Source of the DNA: Armatimonadota bacterium
Lineage (GTDB): Bacteria; Armatimonadota; Armatimonadia; Armatimonadales; Armatimonadaceae
Direction: 5' to 3'
Length of the DNA stretch: 64,000 nucleotides
Assembly (NCBI GenBank): GCA_026392155.1
Contig: JAPLCP010000136.1
Location: 1 to 64,000, forward strand
A program made the translations under genes and the position numbers. Below, in pieces: positions 27,717 through 44,075 of the stretch. Under the pieces are notes generated by a model. The model searched no databases and was not told the DNA's origin. It was given only the letters and a program-made list of their open reading frames with translations. Numbering within the stretch: position 1 is the first letter of the stretch; each line of letters opens with the position of its first letter.

Positions 27717-30700
27717 ATGCGAAATGTCTTTCTCTTCGAGCTGCGCTTTCGAATGCGCCAAGTCTCGACCTATCTGTTCTTTCTGGTGCTCTTTCTGCTG
27801 ACGTTTCTCTTTGTCACCACCGATGCCGTGAAAATAGGCGGTGGGGACGGGCAGATCAAAGTGAATGCGCCGATCGTGCTGGGCCAGATCGTCGGGATCA
27901 TGGGCGCGTTTGGAGCCGTGATTGCCAGCGCCCTAGTCGGTACCGCAATCTACCGTGACTTCGAGGCGCAGGCCCACGAGCTCTTCTTCACCACACGCCT
28001 GAGCCGCGCGGCGTACTTCTTTGGGCGTTTTTTGGGTGCCCTCGTCGTGACGCTCTTTGTCTACTCCGGTTTGCTCTTTGGCGTGCTCCTCGGGAGCCTG
28101 ATGCCCTGGGTAGATAAAAATAGCCTTGGGGCGTTTCGCATCGAGAGCTATGTCAATGTCTTCCTGGTGATCCTGCTCCCCAACGTCCTCTTTCTCTCCA
28201 CGCTGTTCTTTGTCTTTGGGACACTCACGAGAAGCCTGCTGGCGATCTATCTGCAAGGTGTCTTGGTCTTCGTCGGCTGGGCCATCTCCCTGGCGCTACT
28301 TGGCTCTGTGGAGAACAGGCTCGTCGCCTCGCTCTTCGATCCGTTTGGCCTCGCCTCAACCAGTGTGGTGACGCGCTACTGGACCCTCGCTGAGAAAAAC
28401 TCCCAGCTCCTGCCACTCACCGGAGCGCTGCTCTATAACCGTCTGCTCTGGGTTGGGCTTGGGCTTGGCACGCTCGCTCTCGGCTTCCGCCTCTTCCAGT
28501 TCTCGGCCAAGGCACTGGTTCTTGGGAAAAAGCCCCCCCAGCCCCCGTCCAACGGGGGGGATAAAGGGAATCTGATTCCTTATCTTCCCCCCGCCCGGCG
28601 GGGGTCAGGGGGGAATGTCTTCCCCGCCCTCCTGCGCTTCTACTTCCGCGATATCGTCCGCAGTGTCCCGTTTCTCGTGATCGCCGCTGCCGGAACACTG
28701 CTCCTCGTCACCAACGCCTGGATGGCGGACAAACTCTTAGACAACAACAACAGTATTTACCCTGTCACACGAGTTATGGTCGAGCAAGTGAGCGGCTCGT
28801 TCATGCTGTTTTTCTTGATCCTGATCACATTCTATGCAGGTGAGCTTGCCTGGCGCGAGCGCACCGTCAAGCTGGATCAGATCGCCGATGCCCTGCCCGT
28901 CCCAACCTACCGAGTCGCGCTGGCAAAGTTTGTGGCGCTGCTTTTAGTGCTGGCACTGCTGACTCTAGGACTGATCGTAGCCGGGGTCGGGGTGCAGGCA
29001 GCAAAGGGCTACTTTCACTTTGAGCTGGGACTGTACTTTAGCTATCTTTTTGGGACGGTCTACCCGATCCTGATCTGCCTCACCGCGCTGGCGTTTATGA
29101 TTCACACCGTGGTCAACCAGAAGTTTTTGGGGCACACGCTGGTGCTGGTGAGCTTTATCGCCACGCAGGCACTTCCTAGCATGGGCCTCGACCACAAGCT
29201 CTATCTCTTCGGGGATATTCCCACCGCCAAACTCTCGGACATGAACGGCTTTGGGCCGTTTACACTCCCCATTTTCTGGTTTTCGACCTACTGGCTATTG
29301 GCCTCGGTGCTCTTGGTTCTCGCGGCAATCAAGCTCTGGGTGCGGGGCAAGGACGACAAGCTAAGTGTCCGCTGGAAGATCGGGCAGCTTCCGGCGATGG
29401 CAAAGGCCCTTGCCGTGGCGTGCGCGGCGGGCTTTGTGGCGGTCGGTGGCTGGATCTTTGTCAACACCAATCTCAAGCACACCTACCGTCCTGAGAAAGC
29501 GCAGATCAAGCTTCAGGTGGAGTTTGAGCAGAAGTACAAGGCCCGCTACGGGAAGATTCCCCAGCCGCGCATCACGGACGTCGACATGGATGTCACGCTC
29601 TGGCCGGAGCGCGGACAGTGGGAGTCCAAGGGCATCTTCACCCTCAAGAACAAGACCGATAAGCCCGTCACCGAGCTGGTGATCCAGACCGACCCGGAAT
29701 TGACGATCAAGGCGCTGACTCTTGGAGCTGCCGCAAGCCCCGAGATCACAGACAAAGACCGAGGCTTTCGGACGCTGAGGCTCGCGCAGCCACTGGCTCC
29801 CGGCGCGACCACGACGCTGGCTTTTACGCTGGCCTACGACAAGACGGGCTTTGCCAATGGGAGCCCCAACACCGATATTGCCGCCAACGGGACGTTTCTC
29901 ACCATGCCCTGCCCCCAGATTGGCTACCAGGAAGGTGGCGAGATTGGCGATGAGTCTGAGCGGCGTAAGCAGGGTCTTCCTCCCAAGCCGCGCATGGCTC
30001 CCGCCACAGACGTAGCCGCGCGTCGGAACACCTACCTCGGGGTAGACGCGGACTGGGTAAACTTTGCCGCGACCGTGCGTACTGCTCCCGATCAGATTGC
30101 TATCGCGCCGGGCTACTTAGAGCGCGAGTGGCAGGAGAACGGTCGGCGCTGTTTTCGCTACAAAATGGACGCTCCCATCCGCCAGTTCTTCACGTTTGTC
30201 TCCGCCCGCTACACCGTCAAGAAAGACCAGTGGGTCAGCAAAGATGGTAGCAAGAAAGTGGCGCTGGAGATCTACTACCATCCTGGCCATGAGTATAACT
30301 TAGAGCGCATGATGGCGGGTGCAAAAGCGGCACTGTCTTACTGCTCCGAGAGCTTCAGCCCCTACCAGTTCCGCCAGATGCGCATTCTGGAGTTTCCCGC
30401 CTACCAGGGGTTCGCGCAGTCGTTTCCCAACACCGTGCCCTACTCCGAAGGACTGGGTTTTATCCTGAAAGTGGGAAGCGAGAAAGACGCGCTAGATATC
30501 CCGTTCTATGTCACGGCGCATGAAGTCGCGCACCAGTGGTGGGGACACCAGGTGCTTGGGGGAAATGTCGCGGGTAGCGAGATGCTCTCCGAGTCCCTCG
30601 CCGAGTACAGCGCTCTCCAGACCCTCAAGAAGGCTTATGGAGAGGCGGCACTGGCACGTTTTCTCAAGGTAGACATGGACCGCTACCTGCAAGGTCGTGG

Positions 30701-31268
30701 CAGCGAGCGTGAGGATGAAAATCCCTTGGTCGCCGTCCAGAACCAGCAGTACATCCACTACTCCAAAGGCGCGATTGCCTTCTGCGCTCTTGCAGATCGC
30801 ATTGGGGAAGAGAAGCTCAACGCGGCGCTAGCGGGCTTTGTCAAGAAAACGGCCTTTCAAGAGCCGCCCTACACAACATCTCTGGAGCTCATGGAAATGC
30901 TCCGAGCCGCCACGCCCACCGCCGATCAGACTTTTCTGAGCGATCACTTCGAGAAAATCACACTCTATGATCTGCGGATCATCGAGGCAAAGAAAGAGCA
31001 GAGCGGCGGCAAGTGGCGCGTCACGGTTGCCTATAAAGCGCTGAAAAAATACGCCGACGGAAAAGGTAACGAAACCGACGCGGGGCCTGTCAAAGGATTT
31101 GATTTTGGACTCTGGAAAGAGAAAGAGCGCTTGAAAAGCCGCACTGTCACATCCGAGCCAGGTCGCATCGTTTTAGAGTCCGAGAGTGCCGAGCCCGATA
31201 AAGTGGAGATAGACACAAAGCATCTCTACATTGATCGAACACTCGATGACAATACAAAAAAGCTTTAA
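27717..31268 (+). CDS. ABC permease fused to M1-family metallopeptidase
   Basis: The 1183-residue protein has an N-terminal ABC-2-type permease half with two blocks of about six helices (about 10-265 and 310-600). A C-terminal M1 aminopeptidase domain carries the zinc motif HEVAHQWWGH (about 930-940) and the third ligand Glu in SESLAEYSAL. The peptidase should face outside and the ATPase is encoded just upstream, so peptide cleavage and transport may be coupled (inference). Residues about 272-299 are encoded by a GC-rich palindromic element inserted in frame between the two membrane blocks. Such permease-M1 fusions are known from other phyla. Confidence 0.93.
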   Translation: MRNVFLFELRFRMRQVSTYLFFLVLFLLTFLFVTTDAVKIGGGDGQIKVNAPIVLGQIVGIMGAFGAVIASALVGTAIYRDFEAQAHELFFTTRLSRAAYFFGRFLGALVVTLFVYSGLLFGVLLGSLMPWVDKNSLGAFRIESYVNVFLVILLPNVLFLSTLFFVFGTLTRSLLAIYLQGVLVFVGWAISLALLGSVENRLVASLFDPFGLASTSVVTRYWTLAEKNSQLLPLTGALLYNRLLWVGLGLGTLALGFRLFQFSAKALVLGKKPPQPPSNGGDKGNLIPYLPPARRGSGGNVFPALLRFYFRDIVRSVPFLVIAAAGTLLLVTNAWMADKLLDNNNSIYPVTRVMVEQVSGSFMLFFLILITFYAGELAWRERTVKLDQIADALPVPTYRVALAKFVALLLVLALLTLGLIVAGVGVQAAKGYFHFELGLYFSYLFGTVYPILICLTALAFMIHTVVNQKFLGHTLVLVSFIATQALPSMGLDHKLYLFGDIPTAKLSDMNGFGPFTLPIFWFSTYWLLASVLLVLAAIKLWVRGKDDKLSVRWKIGQLPAMAKALAVACAAGFVAVGGWIFVNTNLKHTYRPEKAQIKLQVEFEQKYKARYGKIPQPRITDVDMDVTLWPERGQWESKGIFTLKNKTDKPVTELVIQTDPELTIKALTLGAAASPEITDKDRGFRTLRLAQPLAPGATTTLAFTLAYDKTGFANGSPNTDIAANGTFLTMPCPQIGYQEGGEIGDESERRKQGLPPKPRMAPATDVAARRNTYLGVDADWVNFAATVRTAPDQIAIAPGYLEREWQENGRRCFRYKMDAPIRQFFTFVSARYTVKKDQWVSKDGSKKVALEIYYHPGHEYNLERMMAGAKAALSYCSESFSPYQFRQMRILEFPAYQGFAQSFPNTVPYSEGLGFILKVGSEKDALDIPFYVTAHEVAHQWWGHQVLGGNVAGSEMLSESLAEYSALQTLKKAYGEAALARFLKVDMDRYLQGRGSEREDENPLVAVQNQQYIHYSKGAIAFCALADRIGEEKLNAALAGFVKKTAFQEPPYTTSLELMEMLRAATPTADQTFLSDHFEKITLYDLRIIEAKKEQSGGKWRVTVAYKALKKYADGKGNETDAGPVKGFDFGLWKEKERLKSRTVTSEPGRIVLESESAEPDKVEIDTKHLYIDRTLDDNTKKL
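28534..28613. repeat. GC-rich palindromic element inside the permease-M1 gene
   Basis: Two arms, CCCCCCAGCCCCCG with ACGGGGGG (28534-28560) and CCCCCCGCCCGGCGGGGG followed by TCAGGGGGG (28586-28613), are internally palindromic and inverted relative to each other around a 26-bp centre. The element stays in frame and encodes a Pro/Gly-rich loop. A similar arm lies at 43681-43704. Confidence 0.75.
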
Positions 31269-39357: not shown

Positions 39358-40802
39358 TAGCGCTTGAGTTCCTTGATCACACGGCCCTCATCGGTGGGGC
39401 CAATCAGGCGATTTCCAAGGCCCTGGTAGTCGTAGTGGAGCTTGTAGGGATCAAGGCCAACTCGGTCAAGAATCGTGGCTTGGAGATCGCGAATGGTCAT
39501 TTTATTCTCGACGATCTTGTAGCCAAGCTCATCGGTCTTGCCGTAGGCTCCGGGCTTGGTGCCACCGCCTGCCATCCAGATCGTGAAGGCGTGGGGATGG
39601 TGGTCGCGGCCTAGAAATTTACTACCGCCACGCGCCTCGTTCATGGGGGTTCGGCCAAACTCGCCGCCCCAGACCACTAAGACATCATCGAGCATCCCAC
39701 GCTGCTTGAGGTCTTTGATGAGTGCCGCGCAGGCTTTGTCAGTCTCTCGGCACTTGGCGGGAAGTGCAGTCACTAAGTCGTCGCCCGAGCCGGTGCCGTG
39801 AATGTCCCAGCCCCAGTCATAGAGCTGGACGAAGCGGACGCCTTTTTCCACAAGTCTTCGCGCTAAAAGACAGTTATTGGCAAAACTTGCCTCGCCGGGC
39901 TTAGCCCCGTAGAGGTCCAGGGTCGCCTGGGACTCTTTCTTGATATCCGTTAGCTCCGGCACCGAGAGCTGCATCCGGTAGGCAAGCTCGTACTGCGCGA
40001 TGCGTGTCACGGTCTCCGGATCGCCCAGTGCCGCTGCCTCCTGCCGGTTGAGTTTTTCCAGTGCATCCAGGCTCCGCCGCCGCGTCTGGCGGTCTATTCC
40101 CGGCGGATCAGACAGATAAAGAATCGGGTCACCTGCTGAGCGACACTGAACGCCTTGATGAATGCTGGGCAGAAACCCACTCGACCAGAGACTCTTGCCC
40201 CCCGTCGGGTCGGTGCCACCAGAGAGCAACACCACAAAGCCGGGCAGGTCTTTATTTGCCGTCCCAATCCCATAGGTCATCCACGAGCCCATCGCCGCAC
40301 CGCCAGGGAAGGCGTTGCCGGTATAGAGAAATAGCTCAGCGGGGGCGTGGTTGAACTGCTCCGTAGACATGGAATGAATGATCGCCAGCTCATCGGCGAT
40401 ACTGGATGTGTGTGGCAGGAGATCACACATCCATGCACCACTCTGGCCGTACTGCTTGAACTTGTGTGGCGAGCCGAGTAGCTTTGGCTTGCCCTGGATA
40501 AAGGCGAAGCGCTCGCCTTTCAAATACGAATCCGGGCAGTCCTGCATGTGCAGCTCGTTGAGCTTGGGTTTGTAGTCGAGCAAGTCCAGCGACGGTGGCG
40601 CGCCAGACATGTGCAGGTAGATCACCGCCTTGGCTTTCGCCCCCCCCCGGCTGCTCGCACCACTCGCATCCCCCCTCCCTTTTGCAAAGGAGGGTTCTGG
40701 GTGGGTTGCGGCCAGCGCCAGTGCGCCCAGACCAAGGCCCGTCTTGCCAAAAAACGTTCGCCGCGACATCGCACGGGCTTGCATTAGTTCAAGTTCAGTC
40801 AT
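39357..40802 (-). CDS. DUF1501 family exported protein
   Basis: The 481-residue product carries a Tat signal (SRRTFFGKTGLGLGALALAA) and the DUF1501 core (VIYLHMSGAPPSLDLLDYKP, GVRFVQLYDWGWDIHG, VVWGGEFGRTPMNEARGG). It is the counterpart of the PSD1 protein at 41424-44075. Residues about 33-44, just after the signal peptide, are encoded by a palindromic repeat insertion. The start overlaps the end of the retropepsin-like gene (ATGA). Confidence 0.92.
   Translation of the reverse strand: MTELELMQARAMSRRTFFGKTGLGLGALALAATHPEPSFAKGRGDASGASSRGGAKAKAVIYLHMSGAPPSLDLLDYKPKLNELHMQDCPDSYLKGERFAFIQGKPKLLGSPHKFKQYGQSGAWMCDLLPHTSSIADELAIIHSMSTEQFNHAPAELFLYTGNAFPGGAAMGSWMTYGIGTANKDLPGFVVLLSGGTDPTGGKSLWSSGFLPSIHQGVQCRSAGDPILYLSDPPGIDRQTRRRSLDALEKLNRQEAAALGDPETVTRIAQYELAYRMQLSVPELTDIKKESQATLDLYGAKPGEASFANNCLLARRLVEKGVRFVQLYDWGWDIHGTGSGDDLVTALPAKCRETDKACAALIKDLKQRGMLDDVLVVWGGEFGRTPMNEARGGSKFLGRDHHPHAFTIWMAGGGTKPGAYGKTDELGYKIVENKMTIRDLQATILDRVGLDPYKLHYDYQGLGNRLIGPTDEGRVIKELKR
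40671..40705. repeat. Palindromic element inside the DUF1501 gene
   Basis: A near-perfect palindrome, CCCTCCCTTTTGC/GCAAAGGAGGG, followed by TTCTGGGTGGG lies in frame just after the Tat signal coding region. The order, palindrome then a spaced G-run, resembles the arms at 28586-28613 and 43681-43704. Confidence 0.65.
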
Positions 40803-41423: not shown

Positions 41424-44075
41424 TTATCCTTTCGTCAGCACGCCGTCTAGGTTGAGCAGGACATTGGCGACCACTGTCCACGCGGCCAGCTCTGCATCCT
41501 CAGTCCCCGTGAGCTTTTTCGCCTCCATCAAATTTGCGGTGTAGTGCACTTTCTCGCTCTCAAACAGTGCGACGAGCGGTGGGATTTGGCTGTCCAGTGC
41601 AGGGCGACAGAGAGCGAGGCGCAGGCCGTGGCGGGCTTTCTCAGCGGGCGTTTTCCCTTCCAGACGTTTGGCCAAGCCGACCGCCATCTCCAAGTAGGCA
41701 GGATCGTTGAGCGTGACGAGCGCTTGGAGGGGCGTGTTGGTGGGGATACGACGAACCGTGCAGAACTCGCGGCTGGGGGCATCGAAGGTCTGCATACTCG
41801 GATACGGAACCGTGCGCCGCCAGAAGGTGTAGAGGCCACGCCGGTAGCGATCTTCACCCGTGCTAGTGGGGTACGAGCGCTCGCCGTTAAACGCCGCTTT
41901 CCAGAGCCCATCGGGCTGGGGCGGATAGACGCTGGGGCCGCCGAGCTTGGGCGAGAGCAGGCCACTGACCAAGAGCGCCTGGTCGCGGATTCCTTCGGCA
42001 TCCAAACGGCGGCGGGGGTAGCGCGAGAGCAGGCGCACCTTTGGGTCACGAGCGAGCTTTTCAGGGGTCACTTTGCTACTCTGCCGGTAGGTACGGCTCA
42101 TCGCAATGCTCTTGAGAAAGCGCTTGACATTCCAGTCGCGCTGAAAGTCTAGTGCCAGATAGTCGAGAAGCTCGGGATGCGTGGGAGACGCGCCCTGCGT
42201 CCCGAAGTCCTCCTCTGTCTCCACAAGCCCTGTTCCAAAGAGCTGCGCCCAGAAACGGTTCACCTGGACACGCGCGGTTAGTGGGTTCTCCCGTGCAACG
42301 AGCCACTTGGCCAGCTCTAAGCGGTTGGTGAGCGGCTTTTTCGTAAAGGCGGCGGGGCCTGCGGGCGTGACGACTTCTTCGGGAGTTAGGAAGTTCGCCA
42401 GAGTGAGTGAGCGTGTCACACGGCGCTTGACCTCGGGGAGCTCACGCATCACGGGCAGTGGGATCGGCTTGAGAGCGGCTAGCTCAGACTGCTTCTGGGC
42501 AATTCTTTGGGCCGTGGGCGAGTCAGTGAGCAAGGCCGTTTTTACCGCGGTAATCGCGCCGGGAATCCCCTGCTCCGCTACTACTTTCCGGCTTTCGTCG
42601 TAGAGCGTGATGCGAACATGGGCGAGCATGCCGGAGTGGGCATCGGTGCGCGGCCAGATGGCGATACTCTGGAGTGGATAGGTTGCGCCTAGGTCTACTT
42701 CCCACCAGGGGTCTTTCTCCTGCTTCGTGTGCGTGACGGTGTTATCGGGGAACTTACCGCTCGTGTTACCATCAATGGCCCGCGCCGCCTCGCCGCTAAA
42801 GTCCGTGCTGGACTGGCTCGCCTTCCCCTTGCGTGCCACATTCTCGCTACCGCTCAGCGCCTGCACCTCGGCAAGCATGAGAAATGCCGTGCCTGGAAGT
42901 GTCACACGCACAAAACGCGCACTCGGCGCCTTACCTGCGGGCTCGGCAGCACGCTGCGTCTCCAGCTCCGCTAGCTCTTTTTCGAGGGCTTGCTTTTTCG
43001 TGCGTTGCGCCGCGGTCAGCACCGGCATGGTGGGGAACTCATCGCCTCGATCACTGTCCTCAGTCTGATTGAAGATCGCCATGGTTCGATAGAAATCAGT
43101 CTTAGAGATCGGATCGAACTTATGCGTATGGCACTGGGCGCACTGGTAGGTCAGCCCCATCCACGCCTGCATGGTGACAACGGTTCGGTCTTTGACAGCG
43201 GCAGTGCGAAACTCTTCATCACTCGTGCCTCCCTCGGTGTTGGTCATGGTATTGCGGTGAAAGGCTGTCGCAATCTTCTGATCCTCAGTGGCGTTGGGCA
43301 ATAAGTCCCCCGCAAGCAGCTCCTGCGTGAACTCATCAAAAGGCTTGTTGGCATTAAACGCAGCGATCAGCCAGTCGCGCCAGGGCCAGAGATTGGGCCT
43401 GAGCGGGTCGGAGCCATAACCCGCTGAGTCGGCGTAGCGCCCCAAGTCCAGCCAGAGACGCGCCCACTTCTCTCCAAAGTGCGGCGAGGCGAGCTGGGAG
43501 TCCACAAATTTCTCGTAGGCATTGGGCGCTTTGTCGCTCACAAATGCCTCGGCATCTTTGAGGCTTGGCGGCAGTCCTGTCAGGTCCAGCGCCACCCGCC
43601 GCGCCAGAGTCCACCGATCCGCCTCTGGGGAAAGAGCAAGCTTCTCTTTCGCCAGCCGAGCCATCACAAGCGTATCTATTCCCCCGCGAGCGGGGGCTAG
43701 GGGGCGATTAAATGCCCAGTGCCCTTCGTACTTTGCGCCCTGCCCAATCCAGCGCCGTAGCGTGTTAATCTGCGGCTCCGTCAAGCGATGTCCCGTCTCT
43801 TGGGGTGGCATCTTAAGCGCATCGCCCACGGGCAGGGTGACGCGAGCAATGAGCTTGCTGGCTAGAATATCGCCGGGGATCACGGCACGGTTGGGCTCAT
43901 CCAGGCGCAGGTTTGCGGAGCGGCTCTGCTCATCGGCTCCATGGCAGCGCAGACAGTTGGCAGCCAAGAGAGGACGAACATCCCGGCGGTAGTCCACCGG
44001 CTCGGGGGCGGCAAAGGCCACGGCCCATAAGCCCACGCTGGTCAGTAACGAAAACGAGAGCAATTGGTGCTTCAT
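41424..44075 (-). CDS. PSD1/DUF1549-DUF1553 protein with F5/8 type C-like domain
   Basis: The 883-residue exported protein has a signal peptide (about 1-22), a cytochrome-c-like domain with CLRCH (41-45), DUF1549 (about 130-330; second CxxCH in YQCAQCHTHKFDP), a central discoidin/F5-8C-like carbohydrate-binding domain (ASQSSTDFSGEAARAIDGN, WWEVDLGATYPLQSIAIW), and DUF1553. The inserted lectin-like domain supports a carbohydrate target. The ATG at 44075 gives the signal peptide. TAAAAT lies 11 nt upstream, within the palindrome TTTTACGTAAAA (44088-44099). Residues about 124-132 come from a palindromic repeat. Confidence 0.92.
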   Translation of the reverse strand: MKHQLLSFSLLTSVGLWAVAFAAPEPVDYRRDVRPLLAANCLRCHGADEQSRSANLRLDEPNRAVIPGDILASKLIARVTLPVGDALKMPPQETGHRLTEPQINTLRRWIGQGAKYEGHWAFNRPLAPARGGIDTLVMARLAKEKLALSPEADRWTLARRVALDLTGLPPSLKDAEAFVSDKAPNAYEKFVDSQLASPHFGEKWARLWLDLGRYADSAGYGSDPLRPNLWPWRDWLIAAFNANKPFDEFTQELLAGDLLPNATEDQKIATAFHRNTMTNTEGGTSDEEFRTAAVKDRTVVTMQAWMGLTYQCAQCHTHKFDPISKTDFYRTMAIFNQTEDSDRGDEFPTMPVLTAAQRTKKQALEKELAELETQRAAEPAGKAPSARFVRVTLPGTAFLMLAEVQALSGSENVARKGKASQSSTDFSGEAARAIDGNTSGKFPDNTVTHTKQEKDPWWEVDLGATYPLQSIAIWPRTDAHSGMLAHVRITLYDESRKVVAEQGIPGAITAVKTALLTDSPTAQRIAQKQSELAALKPIPLPVMRELPEVKRRVTRSLTLANFLTPEEVVTPAGPAAFTKKPLTNRLELAKWLVARENPLTARVQVNRFWAQLFGTGLVETEEDFGTQGASPTHPELLDYLALDFQRDWNVKRFLKSIAMSRTYRQSSKVTPEKLARDPKVRLLSRYPRRRLDAEGIRDQALLVSGLLSPKLGGPSVYPPQPDGLWKAAFNGERSYPTSTGEDRYRRGLYTFWRRTVPYPSMQTFDAPSREFCTVRRIPTNTPLQALVTLNDPAYLEMAVGLAKRLEGKTPAEKARHGLRLALCRPALDSQIPPLVALFESEKVHYTANLMEAKKLTGTEDAELAAWTVVANVLLNLDGVLTKG
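43681..43704. repeat. Palindromic element inside the second PSD1 gene
   Basis: CCCCCGCGAGCGGGGG followed by CTAGGGGGC is closely similar to the right arm of the element at 28586-28613. It stays in frame in the linker between the cytochrome-like domain and DUF1549. Confidence 0.7.

Follow-up and report, generated by a model that had tools for sequence, protein, structure and literature searches.

In-frame copies of a REP-type palindrome family in Armatimonadota genes, with a DUF559 nuclease as candidate partner

The window, a stretch of 64,000 nucleotides from an Armatimonadota bacterium, carries a gene for an ABC-2-type permease fused to an M1 peptidase-like domain (permease-M1), whose reading frame passes through a double palindrome. 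The palindrome consists of two inverted copies of a unit, CCCCC-N3-CCCCCG-N5-CGGGGG, that defines a repeat family we name C5. The features considered here are the following:

27717–31268, plus strand: host gene, permease fused to M1 peptidase-like domain; ORF of 1183 aa with Pfam matches to ABC2_membrane_4 and Peptidase_M1
28533–28613, plus strand: whole C5 dimer, 27 codons (PPQPPSNGGDKGNLIPYLPPARRGSGG), in frame, reading open on both sides
28534–28558, plus strand: left C5 unit, CCCCCCAGCCCCCGTCCAACGGGGG, exact pattern match
28559–28587, no strand assigned: spacer, containing the inner tails of the C5 family, ggataaagggaatc and gattccttatcttc
28588–28612, minus strand: right C5 unit, inverted, CCCCCTGACCCCCGCCGGGCGGGGG, exact pattern match
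40670–40694, no strand assigned: non-C5 palindrome, CCCCCCTCCCTTTTGCAAAGGAGGG, between a signal-like N-terminus and the remaining part of a reverse-strand ORF
43681–43704, minus strand: lone C5 unit whose loop is shorter, lying in frame in a gene of PSCyt1/DUF1549 type

Consistent with the first-pass annotation, which proposed an in-frame palindromic insertion at 28534–28613, both units and the 29-bp spacer between them lie in frame with the host ORF, and together form 40-nt arms centred on 28573. The 27 encoded residues (273–299) are rich in proline and glycine and occupy a linker directly ahead of the second membrane block, as expected from the loop between membrane blocks described earlier. 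Folded as single-stranded DNA, the dimer has a z score of −3.5, with none of 200 shuffled sequences equally stable. Of two further copies suggested at 40671 and 43681, the second is a true C5 unit, and the first was rejected as a palindrome of a different kind. This other palindrome, in the region 40640–40700, adjoins a run of nine C.

Exact C5 units number 132 in the 4.77-Mb genome containing the window (G000) and 144 in a sister species (G001), compared to none in either genome for the reversed pattern. The window palindrome is therefore not a chance arrangement, and the earlier expectation that a search with its arm pattern would find further copies in the genome was confirmed. The ten other genomes of this taxonomic family lack exact units save for one match, which is a plain C-run, although with two mismatches allowed two of the ten (G004 and G006) show some excess over the control. 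Context was examined for units among the first 100 listed per genome. In these 200 listed units from two genomes, all 57 adjacent pairs are oriented head to head (+/−), most at spacings of 50–54 bp. The base pair closing the hairpin loop in 93 units is C-G (66), T-A (25) or T-G (2) and is broken in none (Fisher p about 1e-20). Dimer arms do not covary across the spacer, as evidenced by a complementarity of 0.51 within dimers versus 0.60 between dimers, and units inside one dimer vary independently. Since the closing pair covaries and the dimer halves do not, the single hairpin seems to be the maintained structure; selection on a long hairpin spanning the whole dimer is unsupported. Position frequencies of the same 93 units give CCCCC(T/C)A(A/G) followed by a weakly conserved tail, with no GTAG/CGTC tag. 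Some C5 units carry a GGTACCCTCTGGGTG insert, and another recurring repeat, GTTCGGGTACCCCGCGTAGCGAGGGTGGTGGGGCTGGGGG, adjoins C5 units at three loci of the window genome (L003, L005 and L153).

C5 is a new repeat family, though of an established type. Its 25-nt hairpin core falls within the 20–40 bp of repetitive extragenic palindromic (REP) units and is present in high copy, most elements lie outside genes, and the regularly spaced inverted doublets are those of BIMEs and REPINs, without the compensatory changes across the spacer. We consider that these sequence features are best read as a REP-type, dimeric (BIME/REPIN-like) family of short, putatively mobile elements. GTAG/CGTC REPs similarly comprise short palindromic units in more than 100 copies, arranged as head-to-head dimers and mostly non-genic, with some in frame in genes including DNA polymerase I (PMC3733652). 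C5 differs from them in being untagged, in its C5/G5 hairpin with a CCCCCTAA 5′ flank, and in that the candidate partner gene bracketed by its units encodes a DUF559 protein rather than a RAYT transposase. REPINs are likewise non-autonomous inverted doublets with restricted spacer length and hairpin potential (PMC3116915), but are tied to RAYTs and show the compensatory changes across the spacer that C5 arms lack.

Sixteen of 68 distinct elements examined with their flanks are in frame within genes. Seventeen elements have coding signal and an open frame to either side; one of these (L118_2420) was rejected as an in-frame insertion because its ORF spans the DUF559 gene, the repeat and argG. 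The genes affected encode, among others, DNA polymerase I, PutA, a lipoyl/acyltransferase E2, GcvT, a MetE-like protein, GH127, an adenylation enzyme and two PSCyt1-DUF1549 proteins. In the majority the insert falls between domains, in some within a domain; the inserted peptides include PPQPPSNGGDKGNLIPYLPPAR. Three PSCyt1-DUF1549-type paralogues (window 43681, L009 and L151) carry C5 units in what appears to be the same interdomain linker. Insertion in frame into unrelated ORFs is a feature of Rickettsia palindromic elements (RPE), with which the first-pass annotation compared the window palindrome, and this part of the likeness holds: C5 is a dispersed palindrome found in frame in many unrelated protein genes, with the added peptide tolerated as in RPE (PMC3733652) and with orthologues that lack it. 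The comparison is one of description, not sequence; the host group differs, about three quarters of the examined C5 elements are non-genic, and the anatomy of head-to-head hairpin units is that of REPs, BIMEs and REPINs. RPE-4 and RPE-6 have themselves been described as members of the REP/BIME/REPIN group, in-gene REPs are known, O. terrae and Rickettsia conorii having the highest numbers, and Xanthomonas recB genes hold REPs at about the same site (PMC3733652).

Comparison with the sister species, whose orthologue of the window gene is 84% identical, revealed that the loop is not shared by all orthologues. Among the 16 in-frame sites, the sister retains a C5-like unit at two (L002 and L151), has no recognisable repeat at six (L009, L011, L120, L131, L145 and L148, with clean gaps at L120 and L148), carries a different palindrome in the same place at seven (the window gene, L019, L117, L118_4248, L130, L132 and L149), and has no orthologue found for one. 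All seven alternative palindromes have further matches elsewhere in the sampled sister DNA, indicating that they too belong to repeat families. One of these is common to the window gene and L132; that at L149 is the REP flanking a RAYT gene (L193), and that at L117 has its match in a repeat next to the DUF559 gene L231. At the insertion junctions the sister alignments are too diverged to define a target-site duplication. Outside the phylum, a single named orthologue of the window gene, that of Hymenobacter sp. CCM 8763, contains a clear palindromic insert, in frame and in the same permease-M1 linker (L042, 5829–5967). This insert belongs to the family bracketing that organism's own DUF559 gene (L279, upstream flank), and the other Hymenobacter orthologues checked have the linker without a palindromic insert. 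Domain linkers may conceivably be landing sites that are reused by different repeat families across lineages, even phyla.

Both species have an orthologous DUF559 gene beside argG that is bracketed by C5. Among the 200 listed units, just two +/− C5 pairs have a separation of 120–1000 bp, and each encloses this gene, one per species. The Pfam match to DUF559 (PF04480), a Vsr-like PD-(D/E)XK nuclease domain (PMC12907096), has an E value of 5e-30 in the sister (L232) and 6e-21 in the window genome (L240). The conserved D...E-x-D motif is present, with D59, E70, D72 and H76 invariant, and in the PDB its best relative is 3hrl, described as an 'endonuclease-like protein'. Relative to the intact sister copy (G001:C2), the window genome's copy (G000:C69) has an 81-nt in-frame deletion removing 27 residues, in a conserved stretch near the N-terminus, and may for this reason now be inactive. 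The arrangement resembles RAYT-REP pairs, in which a small nuclease gene lies within inverted copies of a dispersed palindrome (PMC2817692), except that DUF559 is unrelated to Y1 transposases. It shares its Pfam domain and nuclease superfamily with Caulobacter VsrA, which by comparison has been proposed as a mismatch-repair enzyme (PMC12907096).

The remaining DUF559 genes of the genus mostly lie within or next to other palindromes. Bracketing was scored as inverted similarity between the 400-bp flanks of a gene (cut-off 50). The test involves GC-rich repeats, although the controls, flanks paired from different loci, cover composition. Across the phylum, two samples gave brackets at 24 of 40 and 19 of 39 DUF559 loci (43/79, leaving about half without a bracket at the cut-off), compared to 0/236 and 0/284 control pairs (0/520); RAYT loci, a known yardstick, scored 9/10 in the same test. 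In named genomes of other phyla, brackets were found at 13 of 30 DUF559 loci, in Rhodanobacter, Stenotrophomonas, Xanthomonas, Luteimonas, Hymenobacter and Sabulibacter, and at none of 960 random positions, which were used as the control here because some species share repeat families and this spoils cross-species pairs. Nuclease similarity and bracket similarity are only weakly correlated (rho 0.095, with 65 of 1000 permutations as high), at most a weak sign of coevolution. In many bracket repeats, for example CGGGGGTTAGGGGGG, two G-runs are separated by a short TT/TTA spacer, and G-quadruplex formation could be relevant to their recognition.

It might be argued that C5 serves genome architecture or acts as an RNA element (for instance as a terminator or as a nucleoid or repair signal), and that recombination and gene conversion have spread it without a dedicated enzyme, its association with DUF559 reflecting tolerance or repair. 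Such a role would suit the mostly non-genic location of C5, the occupation of one site by different families in different species, and the independent variation of units within a dimer. We regard it as very improbable, however, because in-frame copies in unrelated genes together with clean empty sites in the sister require insertion, and because bracketing of DUF559 is far above controls.

A repeat of Xanthomonadaceae bears on the direction of the association. It occurs in five of the searched genomes (173, 16, 9, 3 and 2 copies), all of which have copies next to a DUF559 gene; 18 others lack it, and one more yields just one match, at two mismatches. This repeat is nearly identical read backwards, which makes the reversed-pattern control invalid. 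The only two copies in Rhodanobacter panaciterrae are both beside DUF559, as are two of the three in Xanthomonas chitinilytica, leaving no pre-existing crowd of repeats to invade. This argues against a reading of DUF559 as a homing-type endonuclease with palindromic repeats as its target, which has inserted itself in a dimer and parasitises the repeats without moving them. The position of the gene exactly inside an opened dimer would fit that scenario, as would a weak PDB sequence relative, 3r3p, annotated as a mobile intron protein, yet overall we think it rather improbable. No link between DUF559 and palindromic repeats is apparent from the titles and abstracts of the searched papers that name the domain.

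A bipartite motif, TTNTCAGA-N15-CCGTTNTA, lies just upstream of the starts of RAYT and DUF559 genes in the genus. It occurs at 11 + 17 = 28 sites in the two genomes, always at the same spacing and with no match to reversed controls:

Motif loci, both species: L315–L329, L031–L033, L192–L197 and L239–L243

Half of the sites (14/28) are ahead of a DUF559 gene, a RAYT gene or the remnant of one. Others precede recA, radC, a ComM-type ATPase, ComEA-like HHH proteins and rpsF-ssb, and three precede genes without identification. Judged by its gene content, the motif-bearing set looks like a competence/recombination regulon, of which the motif is probably the genus's promoter. Within the literature searched, both the proposed partnership of DUF559 with palindromic repeats and its link to competence genes appear to be new.

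The shared motif is also one of the points in favour of another reading, in which C5 is a conventional REP family mobilised in trans by a resident RAYT and the DUF559 gene is just a passenger. Genes for Y1 transposases (RAYTs) are indeed present, three in the window genome and seven in the sister, each flanked by its own REP-like inverted repeats, one of which is the repeat occupying the L149 site in the sister. Nevertheless, no C5 repeat was found near any of the ten Y1_Tnp genes in the two genomes, on which basis RAYT was rejected as the cognate enzyme of C5. The C5 units also lack the GTAG tag of RAYT-type REPs, and, across phyla, the palindromes around DUF559 genes belong to many unrelated families. 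Movement by a RAYT hence appears unlikely.

On balance we lean towards the palindrome in the permease-M1 linker being a REP-type mobile element whose likely partner is the DUF559 nuclease, mobilised when single-stranded DNA is abundant. Two head-to-head hairpin units would have landed in frame in the linker between membrane blocks and been retained because this linker tolerates a Pro/Gly-rich loop, while disruptive, out-of-frame insertions would have been lost. The family would be recognised as single-strand hairpins, with the nuclease encoded beside argG potentially serving C5 as RAYTs serve GTAG REPs. Mobilisation would probably coincide with abundant single-stranded DNA, as in competence or recombination, since DUF559 shares its upstream motif with RAYT, recA, ssb, radC, comM and comEA. 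Points against this reading are that no movement or excision product was seen, the deletion in the window genome's nuclease copy, the DUF559 loci lacking a bracket, the weak correlation of nuclease and bracket similarity, and the mismatch-repair role proposed for VsrA. More tentatively, DUF559 could represent a second, RAYT-independent class of REP-associated enzymes in several phyla, spreading palindromic repeats for which no transposase is known, with both classes belonging, in this genus, to a competence/recombination regulon and different repeat families reusing the same linkers.

Some palindromic families, such as the CGTC REPs, have no known mobilising enzyme and are said to be without a dedicated transposase (PMC3733652). 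If DUF559 is that enzyme for a share of them, a common domain of unknown function would gain a role, and the old question of what mobilises these repeats would become testable in vitro. Proteins including DNA polymerase I and PutA have gained linker residues from putatively mobile DNA, and in related species other repeats occupy those linkers, making repeat insertion a recurrent source of new protein loops. Should the proposed timing be correct, repeats would spread, and new in-frame loops would arise, when single-stranded DNA is present in the cell.
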